Positions 26,009 to 55,612 of a DNA stretch of 64,000 bases are shown one piece after another. Numbering within the stretch: the stretch's first letter is position 1; each line of letters opens with the position of its first letter. Where the stretch lies: the NCBI RefSeq assembly GCF_907163125.1, contig NZ_OU015319.1:1674001-1738000 (forward strand), read 5' to 3'. The notes below the pieces were generated by a model. It ran no database searches. It saw only the letters and a list, made by a program, of their open reading frames with translations, and had not been told where the DNA came from. The translations under genes and the position numbers were made by a program. The stretch is from Cloacibacterium caeni (lineage in GTDB: Bacteria > Bacteroidota > Bacteroidia > Flavobacteriales > Weeksellaceae).

Positions 26009-26077
26009 AGTAACGACCTAAATCATACAACCGGAGTTTTTCCGAAACAAACAACAAAAGATAAATTTTTGCAAAAT

Positions 26078-28615
26078 ATGCTGAAAAATAAAAACATTCT
26101 TTACATCGTCATTTCATTGGCGATTTTTGTAGTTTTAGCTTTAGTTTACAACAGTCCTATCATTTCTGGGAAACAACTTTTGCAACATGACATTGTACAA
26201 TACAAAGGTGGCGCAAAAGAACTACTAGACTACAGAGCCGAAAATGGCAAAGAAACCTATTGGAGTGATGCGATGTTTGGCGGAATGCCTACTTATCAAT
26301 CAGGTTCACAGTTTAGAGGTGATATCATCAAAAAAATAGATGACACGCTGAACTTTTTGCCAAAACCTGCGAATTTTATTTTTCTGCTTTTTGCTGGATT
26401 TTTCTTACTCGGTTATGTTGCGACTAAAAATTGGAAATACGCTTTGTTAGGCGCCACTTTTTTTGGACTTTCCACGTATTTCTACATCATCATCGCAGCT
26501 GGTCATAATGGTAAAGTTGCCACTTTAACTTATTTCGCACCACTTTTAGCGGGAATTTTACTCGTCTATATTCGTAAAAAATATATTCTTGGCTTTATTG
26601 TCACAGCACTTTTCATGGGATTGCAAATTGCTGCAAACCATCCACAAATGACGTATTACCTTTTCTTGGCATTAGGATTTTTATTCTTGTCTGAATTGGT
26701 AAGAGCAGCTACAGGAAAAACACCATGGAAACATTTCTTCATTTCTTCAGGAATTTTGGCTTTGGCGATGATTCTGGGAATTGGAATGAACAGTCAGAGA
26801 CTTCTTGCCAATTCTGAATATGTAAAAGAAACCGTTCGTGGAAAACAAATTCTGAAATCTGAACACAATGCAGCAGATAATGACGGAATGAAAAAACAAG
26901 AAATTCTGAACTGGAGCTATGGAAAACTAGAAACCTTGAACTTATTCATTCCAAGAGTAATGGGAGGAGCAAGCGATGAAGAAGGCTCAGAAGAAATGAT
27001 GAAAAAAGTTCAGGAATTGGTACAAGAAAATGTAACCTCTCAAGAAGAATATGACCAAATTTCTAAAGGATTTGGAGGAAGTTTAACGTATTGGGGAAAC
27101 CAACCAGGAACTTCTGGACCGGCTTATCAAGGAGCTATTGTGGTATTTTTAGCCATTTTAGGATTTTTCTTCGGGTGGAAAAAATACCGTTATTGGATTT
27201 TAGGCGCGTCTGTACTTTCTGTGCTTTTAGCTTGGGGAAGTAATTTCATGCCGCTTTCTGAATTATTCATAAAATTCGTTCCGTTTTACGACAAATTTAG
27301 AGCACCAAGTTCTATATTAGTTGTAGTAGAATTATTATTTCCACTGATTGCAATCCTTGGATTATACAGATTTTTCAATGACGAAAAACTTACTTATGAA
27401 TACAAACAAAAAGTTTTAGTTTACGGAAGTTCTGCAGTTCTTGGAATTACTCTATTATTGGTTATTTTTGGGAAAAGCTTACTCGGATTTGCTACTTCAA
27501 ACGAAACTGCTTATTTGCCTTCATATTTATTAGATTATTTGGTTGGCGAACGCTTCACGATGTTTAGAATCGATGCTATTAAAGCCATGATTTATGTTTC
27601 TATCACTGCTTTAGCACTATATTTTGCATTGAAGAAAAAATTATCTCAAAACATTGCTTTAATCATTATAGGATTGGTAAGTTTATTTGATTTATGGTCT
27701 GTGAACAAACGCTATTTAAACAGCGATAATTTTGTAGATAAAGCTTTTGCACAAACTCCATTTGTGACCGAAAATTCAGATTATTTAGCTGGAAAAGCAG
27801 GTGATAATCCACTTTTAAATGATTTGCTTTCTCGAGCGAATATGAATAAAACTTTAGAAGAAATTACCGAAAAAGATAAAACCCATTATAGAATTTTCAA
27901 CCAACTTCTAGGGCCTTTTAATGAAACCAATACTTCTTATTACAAAGCTTCTGTAGGTGGTTATCACGCTGTGAAATTAAGAAGATATGACGATTTAATC
28001 AATCATTATTTCTATGCTGAAGACAGTGTGAAGTCTGCTCAAATCCCGCAAATTCTCAATTTATTGAACACCAAATATGTAGTTGGCGGAACATTGGAGA
28101 AACCTCAAGTTCAGATCAATCCGAATGCGAATGGAAATGCTTGGCTGGTTTCTGATGTGAAATTTGTGAATACTCCGAATGAAGAAGTAGATGAAATAGG
28201 AAATATAGATTCTAAAAAAACAGCGGTTATTTCGAATGATGATAAAAAATATTTTGAAGGAAAAACTTTAGCGACTGATTCTACTGCTTTTGTAAATTTA
28301 ACAAAATATCAAGCAGACGAACTAGAATATAAAACACAGTCTAAAACGCCACAATTGGCTGTTTTTTCTGAAATTTATTATCCAAAAGGCTGGAAAATGT
28401 TTGTAGACGGAAAAGAAGTTCCATACATCAAAGCTGATTATTTATTGAGAGCCGTTTACGTTCCAGCAGGAACTCATACGGTAAAAATGATATTCGAACC
28501 AGAAGTAATAGCCAAAGGAAAAACCATTTCCTTAGTTGCTTTTGGTTTGTTTGTATTGCTTTCTTTGGTGGGGATATTTTTATTAAACCGCAAAAGCGAC
28601 AAAAGAAATAATTGA
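26078..28615 (+). CDS. YfhO-family multi-span membrane protein
   Basis: The 845-residue protein has about a dozen hydrophobic segments and a large C-terminal extracytoplasmic domain (FSEIYYPKGWKMFVDGKEVPYIKADYLLRAV, a family hallmark) before a last membrane span. YfhO proteins resemble GT-C glycosyltransferases and have been linked to glycosylation of lipoteichoic acid in Gram-positives; in Bacteroidota the substrate is unknown. ATG 26078 is preferred to an in-frame TTG three codons upstream. The last codons (NRKSDKRNN) coincide with the outer left inverted repeat of the GxxExxY element. Confidence 0.85.
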   Translation: MLKNKNILYIVISLAIFVVLALVYNSPIISGKQLLQHDIVQYKGGAKELLDYRAENGKETYWSDAMFGGMPTYQSGSQFRGDIIKKIDDTLNFLPKPANFIFLLFAGFFLLGYVATKNWKYALLGATFFGLSTYFYIIIAAGHNGKVATLTYFAPLLAGILLVYIRKKYILGFIVTALFMGLQIAANHPQMTYYLFLALGFLFLSELVRAATGKTPWKHFFISSGILALAMILGIGMNSQRLLANSEYVKETVRGKQILKSEHNAADNDGMKKQEILNWSYGKLETLNLFIPRVMGGASDEEGSEEMMKKVQELVQENVTSQEEYDQISKGFGGSLTYWGNQPGTSGPAYQGAIVVFLAILGFFFGWKKYRYWILGASVLSVLLAWGSNFMPLSELFIKFVPFYDKFRAPSSILVVVELLFPLIAILGLYRFFNDEKLTYEYKQKVLVYGSSAVLGITLLLVIFGKSLLGFATSNETAYLPSYLLDYLVGERFTMFRIDAIKAMIYVSITALALYFALKKKLSQNIALIIIGLVSLFDLWSVNKRYLNSDNFVDKAFAQTPFVTENSDYLAGKAGDNPLLNDLLSRANMNKTLEEITEKDKTHYRIFNQLLGPFNETNTSYYKASVGGYHAVKLRRYDDLINHYFYAEDSVKSAQIPQILNLLNTKYVVGGTLEKPQVQINPNANGNAWLVSDVKFVNTPNEEVDEIGNIDSKKTAVISNDDKKYFEGKTLATDSTAFVNLTKYQADELEYKTQSKTPQLAVFSEIYYPKGWKMFVDGKEVPYIKADYLLRAVYVPAGTHTVKMIFEPEVIAKGKTISLVAFGLFVLLSLVGIFLLNRKSDKRNN

Positions 28616-29119
28616 AAAAATAGCCATTAAAAAGTAAAAAAAGAGTTAATGATTACGCAACAATATCTTACCGATTTAACATATAAAATTAATGGAGCTT
28701 GTATTGAGGTTCATAAAATTTTAGGTGCAGGTTTAGCAGAAGTTGTTTATCACAAAGCTTTAGAAGAAGAATTCAAATTAAGAAATTTAAATTTCAAGTC
28801 AGAATTTCAAATTCCTGTTTTTTATAAAGAAAAGAAATTAGATTGTGATTTTAAATGTGATTTTCTGATTGAAGATTTAATCGTTTTAGAGTTAAAATCT
28901 GTCTCTCACATTTTAGATGTTCATAAATTTCAAGTTTTGAATTACATGAATTTACTTAAAGTACCGAAAGGAATTTTAGTAAATTTTAATGTTAAAAATC
29001 TTTATCATCATGGACAAGAAACATATATTAATAAATATTACGATGAATTAATGTAAAATCTTTTTTTACTTTTGAAAAACTTATAATACATAGAAAATCT
29101 TTTGTCGCTTTTGCGGTTT
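28585..29119 (+). mobile_element. Compact GxxExxY gene cassette framed by nested inverted repeats
   Basis: A perfect 22-bp inverted repeat beginning AAACCGCAAAAGCG (28585-28606) is matched at 29098-29119. Inside it a perfect 15-bp inverted repeat AAAAGTAAAAAAAGA (28630-28644) is matched at 29059-29073, with 23 and 24 nt between the two pairs. The GxxExxY gene fills the interior: ATG 5 nt after the left inner repeat and stop codon 3 nt before the right one. No target duplication was recognised. Confidence 0.6.
28649..29056 (+). CDS. GxxExxY protein (PD-(D/E)XK-like)
   Basis: The 135-residue protein has the family signature GACIEVHKILGAGLAEVVYHKAL (GLAEVVY is the GxxExxY box) and a likely nuclease core CDFLIEDLIVLELKSV (Asp ... 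Glu-x-Lys). The family is widespread in Bacteroidota, has no proven function and is often placed in the PD-(D/E)XK nuclease superfamily. The gene is alone inside the nested inverted repeats between yfhO and a glycosyltransferase. A second member is at 54175, next to related repeats. This suggests a link between protein and repeats (inference). Confidence 0.88.
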   Translation: MITQQYLTDLTYKINGACIEVHKILGAGLAEVVYHKALEEEFKLRNLNFKSEFQIPVFYKEKKLDCDFKCDFLIEDLIVLELKSVSHILDVHKFQVLNYMNLLKVPKGILVNFNVKNLYHHGQETYINKYYDELM

Positions 29120-29132
29120 AAAAATTATAAAC

Positions 29133-30476
29133 TTGAAACAAAAAAAAATACTCATCATCTCTTATTACTGGCCTCCAGCTGGCGGACCGGGAGTTCAGCG
29201 TTGGTTAAAATTTGTAAAATATTTGCCTGATTTCGGTTGGGAACCTACCGTTTTTATTCCAGAAAACCCTAGTTATCCGATTGTTGATGAAACATTAAAA
29301 AAAGATGTTCCGAAGAATCTCAAAATGATTAAAACCAAAATTTGGGAACCGTACCAATTTGCAGAAAAATTTGGGAAAGACAATAAAAAATTCAAAGCGG
29401 GACAATTTGATGTCGGCGAAAATCAATCATGGAAAGCCAAACTTTCGATTTTTGTTCGCGGCAATTTCTTTATTCCAGATGCGCGTGTTTTTTGGGTAAA
29501 ACCTTCCGTAGAATTTTTAGAAAAATACTTGAAAGTCAATCACTATGATGTTTTGGTAACAACTGGTCCACCACATTCTTTGCACTTGATTGGATTAAGT
29601 TTAAAGAAGAAATTCCCAGACTTAAAATGGATTGCAGATTTCCGTGATCCATGGACTGAAATTTCGTATTACAAATACTTGAAACTGACTAAAATTGCCG
29701 ATAAAAAGCATAGAAAATTAGAATCTGAAGTGTTTAAAAATGCAGATGTTACTTTGGCAACAAGTTATACCGATGCTGAAAATTTCAGAAAAAAAAGCGC
29801 AAATGCTTTCTGCATTACGAATGGGTTTGACTCTGAAGTAAAGTCACAGATTCGTGAAGTTGTAGAATCGGTTGATAATAAAAACGACTTAACGACCTCA
29901 CAACTTAACGATTTTACAGAAAAATTCACATTAAGTTACATCGGTATTTTAGAACAACTCAGAAATCCTGAAATTTTATGGGAAACTTTAAATGATTTGG
30001 TTGAAGAAAATGCAGACTTCAAAAACGATTTTGAGTTGAAGTTTGTAGGAAGATTAGATGATAAAATTTTACAAAAAATAGTAAGTTCAGCTCTTAAAAA
30101 TAACTTAACCAATTTGGGTTATCAAACGCACGATGTTGCGCTAAAACACATGCAGGATTCAACAATTTTATTGATGACGAATTTCCCACAAGAATCTTCA
30201 AAAGGGATTATTCCAGGAAAAATTTTCGAGTATTTGGCAACGGGAAAAACGATTCTTTCTTTCGGTCCAAAAGATGCTGATGTAGAAAAAATCTTGAACG
30301 AAACCAAAGCTGGAAAACATTTTGGCTATGATGAAAAAGAAAATCTAAAGAAATTCTTTTTAGAATCTTACCAAAATTGGAAATTGGGAACGCTGAACCA
30401 AAACGCTGAAAACATTGAGCAATTTTCTAGAAAAAATTTGACTCAGAAATTGGTTGATTTAATGAATAAGATTTAA
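29133..30476 (+). CDS. Glycosyltransferase family 4
   Basis: The 447-residue protein has a GT-B fold: ISYYWPPAGGPGVQRWLKFVK at the N terminus (glycine-rich acceptor loop), DFRDPWTE in the middle and the nucleotide-sugar site with GIIPGKIFEYLATGKTILSFG near residue 355. Such enzymes add sugars to lipid-linked or surface glycans at the cytoplasmic membrane. No ATG lies near; TTG 29133 is the apparent start, only 13 nt after the right end of the GxxExxY cassette. The insertion has therefore probably replaced its native leader; it may once have directly followed yfhO. Confidence 0.85.
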   Translation: MKQKKILIISYYWPPAGGPGVQRWLKFVKYLPDFGWEPTVFIPENPSYPIVDETLKKDVPKNLKMIKTKIWEPYQFAEKFGKDNKKFKAGQFDVGENQSWKAKLSIFVRGNFFIPDARVFWVKPSVEFLEKYLKVNHYDVLVTTGPPHSLHLIGLSLKKKFPDLKWIADFRDPWTEISYYKYLKLTKIADKKHRKLESEVFKNADVTLATSYTDAENFRKKSANAFCITNGFDSEVKSQIREVVESVDNKNDLTTSQLNDFTEKFTLSYIGILEQLRNPEILWETLNDLVEENADFKNDFELKFVGRLDDKILQKIVSSALKNNLTNLGYQTHDVALKHMQDSTILLMTNFPQESSKGIIPGKIFEYLATGKTILSFGPKDADVEKILNETKAGKHFGYDEKENLKKFFLESYQNWKLGTLNQNAENIEQFSRKNLTQKLVDLMNKI

Positions 30477-31435: not shown

Positions 31436-32638
31436 ATGATTGACAAAGAAGACTTATTAAACAACAAGGATTTCTACAAATCCTTTAAGAATGGAGAAGA
31501 TTTAACCTCATTCTTTAAACAAATGCACAAACGAGCTGTAGAACACATGCTCGAAGCCGAACTTGATGCTCATCTCGACAACGAGAAACACGAAAAAACC
31601 ACCACTGGAAACTATCGTAACGGACACGGAACCAAAAAGATAAAATCCTCATTTGGTGAATCTGAAATAAAAATTCCCAGAGATAGAGAAAGTAGTTTTG
31701 AACCAGCTCTAGTTCCTAAAAGACACAATATTATAGAAGGTTTAGAAAATATCATTATCTCCTTTTATGCTAAAGGAATGAGCGTGAGCGATATTGAGGA
31801 GCAAATTCGTGAGATGTATGATTTTGAAGTCTCTACTTCTACCATTTCTAGGATTACTGATGCAGTTGCAAGCGAAGTAGTGAGTTGGCAGAATAGACCA
31901 TTAGAAGACCTTTATCTCATTGTTTGGATGGATGGAATTGTCTTTAAAGTTCGTGAAAACTCAAAAGTCATCAATAAAACCATCTATTTAGCGGTAGGTT
32001 TAAACCGTGATGGCAAGAAAGAAGTTCTCGGAATGTGGCTCGGAAAAAACGAAAGTTCTAGTTTTTGGATGAATGTTTTAACCGATTTAAAAGCTCGTGG
32101 TGTAGAAGATATTTTAATTACAGCTACCGATAATTTGAATGGATTTACCCAGACTATTCGCTCAATTTTTCCTGAATCTCAAACCCAAATCTGTGTAGTT
32201 CATCAAATTAGAAACGCCTGTAAATACGTGGTTTGGAAAGACAGAAAAGACTTTACTGCCGATATGAAGCACATCTATAATGCTCCAAATAAACAAGCGG
32301 CAGAAGCCGCTCTGAATGATTTTGCAGAAAAATGGGAATCCAAATATGCTTATGCGATAAAATCGTGGAGAGATAATTGGGACGAACTGACTGTATTTTT
32401 TGACTTTCCTTTGGAAATCCGTAAAATTATTTACACTACTAATTTAATTGAAAATCTCAATGGAAAAATCAGAAAATATACCAAAAACAAAATGTCTTTC
32501 CCTACGGATGATGCAGTCTTGAAGTCGGTTTTTCTTGCTTTAAAGGAAGCTACCAAAAAATGGTCAATGCCAATCCAAAATTGGGGTATTGTTTTAAACC
32601 AATTTATGCTTATTTTTGACAAAAGGCTCAGATTATAA
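31436..32638 (+). CDS. IS256-family transposase
   Basis: The 400-residue transposase is full length and intact. It has the N-terminal [12 protein letters not shown]-type region, [18 protein letters not shown], and the DDE residues in [11 protein letters not shown] (Asp), [11 protein letters not shown] (Asp) and [17 protein letters not shown] (Glu). The C-H motif of the insertion domain ([14 protein letters not shown]) is present. Exact target duplication and intact frame suggest a recent insertion. Confidence 0.95.
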
Positions 32639-54174: not shown

Positions 54175-54552
54175 TTACAATTTGTTTACGATTCTGTGAA
54201 TTCCATCTTTTAATAACTGAGTTTTAAAATTGATTAATAATCCCAATTTTAAACCTGTAAATTTCAAATAAGTATTGGTTTGCGCAAAATGAATAGGATT
54301 TAATTCTAATACTGATTTCACTTCTACAATCACTTTTTCTTCAACTAAAATATCAATTCTATAAGCATTGTCTATTTCAATTTCTTTATAATTAAGAGCA
54401 AGTGCGTATTGTTGCTTTACCTTTAAACCTAATTTTTGAAGTTCATACACAAGTGCAGTTTCATAAGCACTTTCTAATAGTCCAACTCCGAGGTTTTTGT
54501 GCACTTCTAATGCTGCGCCAATTATTTTATAGGAAATTTCATTTTCTGTCAT
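54175..54552 (-). CDS. GxxExxY protein (second copy; PD-(D/E)XK-like)
   Basis: The 125-residue protein has IIGAALEVHKNLGVGLLESAY (GLLESAY is the GxxExxY box) and the likely nuclease motif RIDILVEEKVIVEVKSV (Asp ... Glu-x-Lys), plus LLINFKTQLLKDGIHRIVN at the end. It is only distantly similar to the copy at 28649. Its stop touches the cutC start, and five tandem palindromic units with CGCAAAG-type ends begin 24 nt before its start codon. Function unknown; the association of both copies with related repeats is the notable point. Confidence 0.88.
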   Translation of the reverse strand: MTENEISYKIIGAALEVHKNLGVGLLESAYETALVYELQKLGLKVKQQYALALNYKEIEIDNAYRIDILVEEKVIVEVKSVLELNPIHFAQTNTYLKFTGLKLGLLINFKTQLLKDGIHRIVNKL

Positions 54553-54576
54553 AGGTGTTATTAGTTTTTATTTTTT

Positions 54577-55604
54577 AAACGCAAAGTCTTACGAAATTTA
54601 TTTAAATATTAAGTGAGCAAAATTCTTATCAACGAGTTGATTTTATTAAGTTCCTGCATAAATTCTCATCTTAAATATAAAAAATATTTTCAAGCTCTTT
54701 CAATTCGCTTGCGAATAAAACTTTGCTTGCTTAAAAAGTTTTAGACATTAAAAAAACCTTTGCGTTTAAAAATTAAATAAACTTAAATGTAAGGTTTTAC
54801 GAAATTATTTAAATATTAAGTGAGCAAAATTCTTATCAACGAGTTGATTTTATTAAGTTCCTGAATAGATTCTCATCTTAAATATAAAAAATATTTTCAA
54901 GCTCTTTCAATTCGCTTGCGAATAAAACTTTGCTTGCTTAAAAAGTTTTAGACATTAAAAAAACCTTTGCGTTTAAAAATTAAATAAACTTTAAACGCAA
55001 AGTCTTACGAAAATTATTTAAATATTAAGTGAGCAAAGTTCTTATCAACGAGTTGATTTTATTAAGCTCTTGTTTAATTTCTCATCTTAAATATAAAAAA
55101 AAATATTTTCAAGCTCTTTCAATTCGCTTGCGAATAAAACTTTGCTTGCTTAAAAAGTTTTAGATCTTAAAAAAACCTTTGCGTTTAAAAATTAAATAAA
55201 CTTTAAATGTAAGGTTTTACGAAATTTATTTAAATGTTAAGTGAGCAAAGTTCTTATCAACGAGTTGATTTTATTAAGCTTCTGCAATAGATTCTCATCT
55301 TAAATATAAAAAATATTTTCAAGCTCTTTCAATTCGCTTGCGAATAAAACTTTGCTTGCTTAAAGAGTTTTAGATGTTAAAAAATCTTTGCGTTTAAAAA
55401 ATTAAATAAACTTTAAATGTAATGTTTTACGAAATTTATTTAAATGTTAAGTGAACAAAGTTCTTATCAACGAGTTGATTTTATTAAGCTCTTGTTTAAT
55501 TTCTCATCTTAAATATAAAAAATATTTTCAAGCTCTTTCAATTCGCTTGCGAATAAAACTTTGCTTACTTAAAAAGTTTTAGATATTAAAAAACCTTTGC
55601 GTTT
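54577..55604. repeat. Five tandem palindromic units of about 208-212 bp
   Basis: Unit starts are near 54577, 54785, 54993, 55205 and 55415. Each runs from AAACGCAAAG or AAATGTAAGG to CTTTGCGTTT plus a short AT linker. Inside lie TTAAGTGAGCAAAGTT facing AACTTTGCTTGCTTAA, and two perfect small hairpins, ATCAACGAGTTGAT and ATTCGCTTGCGAAT. Most positions are identical among units; a window of some 15 nt before TCTCATC varies (TTCCTGCATAAAT, CTCTTGTTTAATT and others). The array fills the entire gap between the glycosylasparaginase and GxxExxY genes. It is not a CRISPR. Confidence 0.9.
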
Positions 55605-55612
55605 AATCAATT

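Follow-up and report, generated by a model that had tools for sequence, protein, structure and literature searches.

The window analysed here, 64,000 nucleotides (nt) of Cloacibacterium caeni (contig NZ_OU015319.1, positions 1,674,001 to 1,738,000 of the forward strand), holds between a yfhO-type gene and a glycosyltransferase gene a small gene of the GxxExxY family enclosed in nested inverted repeats. With a probability of roughly 0.6 we read this unit as a mobile hairpin repeat in its gene-bearing form, with arms that would be recognised by the encoded protein. The gene stands in the loop of a dispersed repeat, the type of the arms follows the protein group, gene and arms occur together in genomes, and the gene is under purifying selection; recognition of the arms, cutting and a copying step by the GxxExxY protein are what we infer from this. 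The unit and its host genes, the latter named as in a first-pass annotation of the sequence, consist of the following features:

26069 to 28615, + strand: upstream host gene, yfhO-type membrane protein, its C-terminal codons overlapping the left arm
28583 to 28606, + strand: left outer arm TTAAACCGCAAAAGCGACAAAAGA, encoding the final residues of the yfhO-type protein; motif family AACC[AG]CAAAAGnn[AG]CAAAAG
28607 to 28629, + strand: left spacer of 23 nt, containing the yfhO-type stop codon
28630 to 28644, + strand: left inner arm AAAAGTAAAAAAAGA, with the same inner arm in gene-less units
28649 to 29056, + strand: GxxExxY gene, PD-(D/E)XK-like, 135 amino acids, in the apical loop of the hairpin
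29059 to 29073, + strand: right inner arm, 15 bp, perfect with the left inner arm
29074 to 29097, + strand: right spacer of 24 nt
29098 to 29121, + strand: right outer arm, 24 bp, perfect reverse complement of the left outer arm
29133 to 30476, + strand: downstream host gene, glycosyltransferase, TTG start

The nested inverted repeats described in the first-pass annotation are real, with small corrections of measure. The outer repeat is perfect, over 24 bp instead of the 22 bp first given; the inner repeat is perfect over 15 bp and the spacers between outer and inner arms measure 23 and 24 nt, as described. The close fit of the gene to the interior stands, the gaps being off by one: the ATG at 28649 lies 4 nt, not 5, past the left inner arm, and the TAA at 29054-29056 ends 2 nt, not 3, short of the right one. 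The overlap with the last yfhO codons was correctly seen, the left outer arm lying inside an open reading frame (ORF) whose stop codon, at 28613-28615, is past that arm. Likewise the glycosyltransferase gene lacks an ATG; its ORF starts 11 nt from the end of the 24-bp right outer arm. Twelve first-order Markov versions of the window were simulated; their longest inverted repeats with arms at a distance of 300-700 nt reached 12-14 bp. The 24-bp outer repeat exceeds every other perfect inverted repeat of that spacing in the 64 kb; the 15-bp inner repeat alone is hardly above chance, since the simulated windows come close to it.

Seven genomes of the genus were compared, G000, which carries the window, and G001 to G006. 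A gene-less repeat, a hairpin of about 130 bp, is dispersed across the genus. In a G003 unit the outer arm is followed by a 22-nt spacer, the inner arm CAAAAGTAAAAAAAGTA, a short loop and the mirror image of these parts. In a DNA search this gene-less unit (L292) matched the left half of the window unit with 84 % (G000 1702580-1702643) and the right half with 81 % (G000 1703060-1703128); only the loop is replaced by the gene. The suggestion of a gene riding with a repeat element is borne out, since the same nested arms recur across the genus without the gene. A covariance model, R1, trained on 15 gene-less units from G000, G003, G006 and G001, gave 24, 24, 32 and 24 raw matches in these genomes, 10 in G004 and 20 in G005. 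Because each palindrome scores on both strands, the number of units is about half of the matches: about 12 in G000, 12 in G003, 16 in G006, 12 in G001, 5 in G004 and 10 in G005, the last two being congeners that had supplied no training unit. No hairpin unit was found by R1 in G002, the only one of the seven without a GxxExxY match and without the exact arm 20-mer; it nonetheless has four genes of the four-helix-bundle type. Within the genus, copies from different sites are mostly 12-26 % divergent. In a wider sample of 100 family genomes the 20-base arm pattern AACCRCAAAAGNNRCAAAAG occurred exactly in 41, with up to 121 copies per genome; the reversed pattern, used as control, was absent from all 100. 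Inward-facing pairs with no gene between them made up many of the places listed, and 20 chosen pairs span 126-229 bp.

Flanks and neighbours of gene-less units were compared for 29 listed rows, some of them one unit matched on both strands. None overlapped an ORF, none lay between divergent genes and 10 lay between convergent genes. Immobile regulatory palindromes under selection, as terminators or stabilisers of messenger RNA, would share this avoidance of ORFs and divergent junctions. We consider that account highly improbable, given the presence and absence of units between close species, the lack of an R1 match in G002 and the co-occurrence with the gene described below.

By both curated profiles the protein of the unit is an intact member of the GxxExxY family: PF13366 (8e-37, 126.6 bits, cut-off 22) and TIGR04256 (1e-37, 128.7 bits, cut-off 35) were exceeded and were its sole Pfam and NCBIfam matches. 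The PD-(D/E)XK-like Asp...Glu-x-Lys core noticed in the first-pass annotation is upheld by Asp71, Glu81 and Lys83, which are invariant, as are Gln95 and Tyr99, in both alignments (20 and 30 sequences); from alignment A4, 12 of 42 first-named rows were left out, including L384 and L415 for stop codons. The spacing Q-x3-Y, seen here in Gln95 and Tyr99, we take to be a mark of RecB/Cas4-type nucleases. An AF2 model of the protein was confident (pLDDT 88.9, pTM 0.82), and its top Foldseek match in the PDB was Cas4 (4ic1, probability 0.99, E 0.013, TM 0.45), followed by Bax1 and RecE, all three presumably PD-(D/E)XK proteins, and soon after by RNA polymerase subunits and unrelated proteins. A sequence search of solved structures gave only a weak match to 4ic1 (E 0.48). 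For the genes at the yfhO site the median ratio of non-synonymous to synonymous substitution (dN/dS) was 0.058, from 69 usable of 136 pairs among 17 of the 24 genes (7 left out), and indicates purifying selection. Codon 5 of the G003 copy at this site (L161) is a stop, and one of the six GxxExxY matches in the G000 genome has an in-frame stop. In-frame stops were also observed in 5 of the 80 loci of a wider set (L384, L387, L400, L403, L415). GxxExxY gene matches were present in 97 of 148 family genomes and 74 of 148 phylum genomes. The literature searched, outside of which lie most subscription papers, gave no account of GxxExxY function or of these repeats and no report of a cutting activity for the family; a passage of PMC8934634 names the domain in passing, and one of PMC12306157 tabulates counts of repetitive extragenic palindromes (REPs) in two genomes of Flavobacterium.

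Loci of the window protein's subfamily, 90 in number, occupy five host sites, gene names being a reading of the ORFs: fumarylacetoacetase/flavin reductase with 53 loci and one more without downstream class, yfhO/glycosyltransferase with 24, and three further sites with 6, 3 and 3 loci. The tree of the subfamily holds 84 of these loci; left out were L161 (stop codon), L228 (shortened frame), L183 (no downstream class), L190, L201 and L218. The yfhO-site proteins form one clade (support 97/89), and the proteins of the fumarylacetoacetase site fall into two well-separated sets. At this latter site the arms go with the protein. CACAAAAG arms stand on both sides, with at most 1 edit each, at 36 of the 39 closer loci among the 54. 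The other clade there has 13 rows (support 100/100); five of them, themselves a clade (100/99), carry CACTTAAG-type arms, and the remaining eight, placed around the five and forming no single clade, carry CACATAAG-type arms. Two loci are left: at L248 AACCACAAAGTCACAAAGG stands on both sides, and L241 shows no clear repeat. Between different sites, arm similarity averaged 0.24-0.28 for protein identities under 60 %, 0.41 for 60-70 % and 0.54 for 70-90 %; in the 141 loci, out of 210, that have an inverted repeat, it correlated with protein identity (Spearman 0.35), a value reached in 0 of 300 permutations. Taken over 71 of the 90 gene loci, left-right concordance of the outer arms exceeded shuffles, to which the relatedness of the loci contributes. 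In another genus, gene-less units (L279-L287) were nested, with CACAAAAG arms outside and CACTTAAG- and CACATAAG-like arms inside, most of them around a GAAAATC/GATTTTC core, as if units of different protein groups had been stacked.

Co-occurrence of arms and gene was tabulated for the 100 family genomes and, with another arm pattern, ACCRCARAGNNCRCARAG, for 148 phylum genomes. A genome outside the list of matches was counted as without match, and arms at GxxExxY loci were included in the arm counts; several genomes held arms far above twice the gene number. In the family 39 genomes had arms and gene, 2 arms only, 14 the gene only and 45 neither (Fisher 2e-13). In the phylum the numbers were 42, 4, 32 and 70 (p 4e-12), and permutation of gene status within families equalled the observed value in 8 of 5000 cases; the reversed ACCRCARAGNNCRCARAG control had one match in the 148 genomes. 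Arm-positive genomes without any GxxExxY match thus numbered 2 of 41 and 4 of 46. The match of arm type to protein group and this co-occurrence are the grounds on which the arms may be taken as ends recognised by the protein, as the first-pass annotation had supposed.

The yfhO-glycosyltransferase junction is empty in G005 and G002 and carries the unit with the same ends in G000, G003 and G006. Within the unit 6 (G000/G003), 3 (G000/G006) and 5 (G003/G006) of 539 positions differ (0.6-1.1 %), and the flanking genes of these pairs are 4.3-9.9 % divergent; for the contrast with yfhO, p was 1e-5, 1e-7 and 4e-5 in the three pairs. The yfhO gene of the empty G005 differs from those of the three by 4.2-4.4 %, the three among themselves by 4.3-4.9 %. 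The first outside differences appear about 20-60 nt past the arms on either side. At three orthologous places, gene-less units had 0-1 differences per 115-129 nt (0-0.9 %) with flanks at 2-18 %, the values of 16-18 % coming from pairs with G000, which carries an insertion in the flank; some units were listed twice in this comparison, as palindromes on both strands, and the distinct places are these three and one counter-example given below. Sequence constraint alone is an unlikely cause of the low divergence, because copies at different sites differ by the 12-26 % mentioned. A recent spread of the unit between species at one site is strongly suggested by these sequence comparisons. The possible single-gene mobile unit of the first-pass annotation is supported by the empty sites in two congeners and by the lower divergence inside; it is no private cassette, but a dispersed hairpin in its gene-bearing form.

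With an ancestral empty state, about 70 nt would have been replaced, including yfhO's own C-terminal codons. That the right arm is an inverted copy of native yfhO coding sequence was considered because the yfhO tails of G012 and G031, with no GxxExxY gene there, also read YRKRDK and YRKRED. The recurrence of the arm type at other host sites speaks for the arm being part of the element; an overlap of host and arm sequence is possible. At the same junction, L026 (G004) has no GxxExxY gene; an orphan ORF stands there, with a small GTCATTC-type hairpin and a right-arm remnant. L039 (G012) has an ORF within TGTCATTCTGACGAAGGAAGAATCTC inverted repeats, which we take to be GIY-YIG-like; with it, unrelated gene-in-hairpin units occupy one junction.

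Much of this would also follow from plain homing, with GxxExxY as a free-standing homing endonuclease: it would cut, at one intergenic site, the allele that is empty, repair from transferred DNA would install the unit, and the hairpins would be by-products. The five conserved sites with largely site-wise clades, the limitation of the low-divergence tract to the unit and 20-60 nt around it, and the empty sites in two close relatives with a compatible divergence pattern all fit. By itself this process leaves unexplained the gene-less hairpins at many places and the arm types that track the protein group at one host site, and we regard it as unlikely.

The plan of a gene within a hairpin extends beyond this genus. 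In a first survey of flanks of about 150 bp, inverted arms with a score of at least 18 were found at 14 of 56 GxxExxY loci, 17 of 38 four-helix-bundle loci and 2 of 244 control ORFs, some loci being orthologous copies; 7.7 % and 3.2 % of mispaired flanks reached this score. A second survey, of 76 usable among the 80 wide loci from named genomes (4 were too short), gave 25 loci at this score against 1 of 206 displaced-flank controls and 4.9 % of mispaired flanks. The arms of the second survey were mostly TTTAACC[GA]CAAAGnnCGCAAAG or near variants, also in the cyanobacterium L430 (score 26). Arms of lower score (14-15.5) were found in the planctomycete L392, Pyrinomonadaceae L429 and Melioribacter-type L372 and L374, and none of this kind at Acidobacteria L425, Spartobacteria L426 and Chlorobiaceae L438. 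The gene-in-hairpin plan is general, yet not universal.

The same breadth bears on the possibility that the hairpins are miniature inverted-repeat transposable elements (MITEs) moved by an unrelated transposase, the GxxExxY gene being a passenger in the loop of one copy. Short inverted-repeat units that are present or absent between species agree with it, as does an ORF at 31436-32638 of the window, about 2.3 kb past the unit, which looks to us like an IS256-type transposase. Such passengers would hardly account for an arm style found around the GxxExxY genes of many genera, some of them in other phyla, for arm types that track the protein group or for the lack of a visible target duplication; we think this origin very unlikely.

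The GxxExxY gene was co-oriented with both neighbours at 47 of 52 and 55 of 69 loci (102 of 121) and antisense to both at 2 and 2. Four-helix-bundle genes were co-oriented at 34 of 38 loci and antisense at none; among 231 background ORFs the numbers were 133 and 16. Only loci with an ORF less than 800 bp away on each side were used (69 of the 80 wide loci), and orthologous loci were counted separately. An insertion blind to orientation, into gene pairs on one strand, would make the co-oriented and antisense classes equal; the bias would be explained if the gene is expressed by read-through, or by a step at the RNA level. As the gene is mostly co-directional with its neighbours, it is probably read from the host operon. 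The four-helix-bundle genes (TIGR02436; L007-L019, L135-L159), with 13 matches in this genome, have the gene-in-hairpin plan and the host-sense orientation in common with the GxxExxY genes; their inverted arms often consist of degenerate tandem repeats of 7-8 nt, which vary between loci. The Coxiella element in ribosomal RNA (rRNA) is likewise described, in a passage of PMC4990558, with heptameric repeats ahead of its ORF.

An element acting on the RNA level, similar to the intervening sequences of 23S rRNA, would draw on the same orientation bias: the hairpin would be transcribed with the host operon, RNase III would free the loop with the ORF, and the unit would be tolerated through its self-removal from the message. 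The layout agrees: an ORF in host sense occupies the loop of an inverted repeat, and passages of PMC4990558 describe the Coxiella element in this way. Against it stand the missing excess of compensatory pairing in gene-less units, the dispersal, which it does not explain, and the 10 of 29 gene-less rows, some of them counted on both strands, between convergent genes. We judge this version quite improbable.

A second GxxExxY gene of the window stands beside an array of hairpins:

54175 to 54552, - strand: second GxxExxY gene
54574 to 55606, no strand: tandem array, 4.9 copies of a 209-bp hairpin unit with arms TTTAAACGCAAAG / CTTTGCGTTTAAA, abutting the second GxxExxY gene

The array has 6 exact copies of the arm CTTTGCGTTTAAA, with none expected.

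In the reading that we prefer, a mobile hairpin with a gene-bearing form, each repeat would be an extragenic palindrome of outer arms (here AACC[AG]CAAAAG-nn-[AG]CAAAAG), spacer, inner arms and loop, the loop being empty in most copies and holding a GxxExxY gene in some. The protein, a putative small PD-(D/E)XK nuclease, would recognise the arms of its own family and cut either DNA folded as hairpin or cruciform or else the empty allele. By repair, the cell would then copy the hairpin, with or without the gene, to new intergenic places and to the equivalent place in related strains. Gene-bearing copies would provide the enzyme on which gene-less copies rely.

Several results weigh against this reading. 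Foldseek found no PDB match to the predicted GxxExxY structure at E<=0.001, a weak fold match. Below 60 % protein identity the arm similarity is flat, and the subfamily of the window dominates the test. Among gene-positive genomes, 14 of 53 in the family and 32 of 74 in the phylum had no match to the single arm pattern searched. G001 and G004 have no protein like that of the window (E<=1e-30) and yet about 12 and 5 gene-less units, so the link to the exact subfamily is not strict. At the fourth orthologous place (L333/L346, G001 against G004) the unit differs by 24 % and the flanks by 8.6 %. Low divergence could partly reflect ordinary recombination between species. In agreement with the first-pass annotation, no target duplication was seen at the two places where filled and empty sites were compared, and there was no fixed junction. 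Covariation of base pairs in gene-less units was not above shuffles; selection for pairing, tested in this way, is unsupported and not visible in these data. At the stricter score (at least 18) clear inverted arms are missing at most sampled GxxExxY loci. Two observations that the first-pass annotation had named as contrary to its proposal were thus made in part: relatives mostly without paired arms, in both surveys, and repeat sequence at yfhO without the gene, as the right-arm remnant of G004.

More tentatively, with the chances somewhat below even, the GxxExxY proteins may be the enzymes of a widespread class of mobile hairpins independent of tyrosine transposases, PD-(D/E)XK nucleases that co-evolve with the arms of their own lineage and drive both gene-less dispersal and gene-bearing homing; the four-helix-bundle genes (rRNA intervening sequence type) and GIY-YIG genes may represent parallel gene-in-hairpin classes. 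If the preferred reading is right, the GxxExxY family gains a role and a class of intergenic repeats is explained, and a second system, unrelated to the REP-associated tyrosine transposases (RAYTs), becomes available for the question of how non-coding repeats and a resident nuclease maintain each other. The pairs of gene-less and gene-bearing units together with the empty sites make the reading directly testable.

Among known systems, free-standing homing endonuclease genes share the site-bound spread between species and the tight low-divergence tract, the nuclease-like fold being a prediction here, and differ in lacking gene-less hairpin copies at many other places. MITEs and insertion sequences share terminal inverted repeats and non-coding copies; the unit shows no target duplication and contains no DDE transposase. 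With REPIN-RAYT, as described in passages of PMC3116915, the likeness is wider: extragenic inverted doublets that form hairpins are dispersed, repeats flank the gene, the gene resides at stable sites, and repeats and gene occur together; the array beside the second GxxExxY gene (54175-55606) resembles the REPIN clusters by RAYT genes. The differences are a PD-(D/E)XK-like GxxExxY protein in place of a tyrosine (HUH/Y1) transposase, longer units with nested arms and the gene inside the hairpin loop, and the lack of an excess of compensatory changes, which PMC3116915 calls common. The intervening sequences of 23S rRNA with their S23p/four-helix-bundle ORF share a single small host-sense ORF whose place is the loop of a long inverted repeat (passages of PMC4990558); the present unit lies between two protein-coding ORFs instead of in rRNA and encodes a different protein family. 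By analogy, REPIN-RAYT would be the nearest system in its working, and the 23S rRNA intervening sequences the nearest in the host-sense layout of a gene in a loop; since the type of enzyme and the location in rRNA do not agree, the unit is a member of neither.

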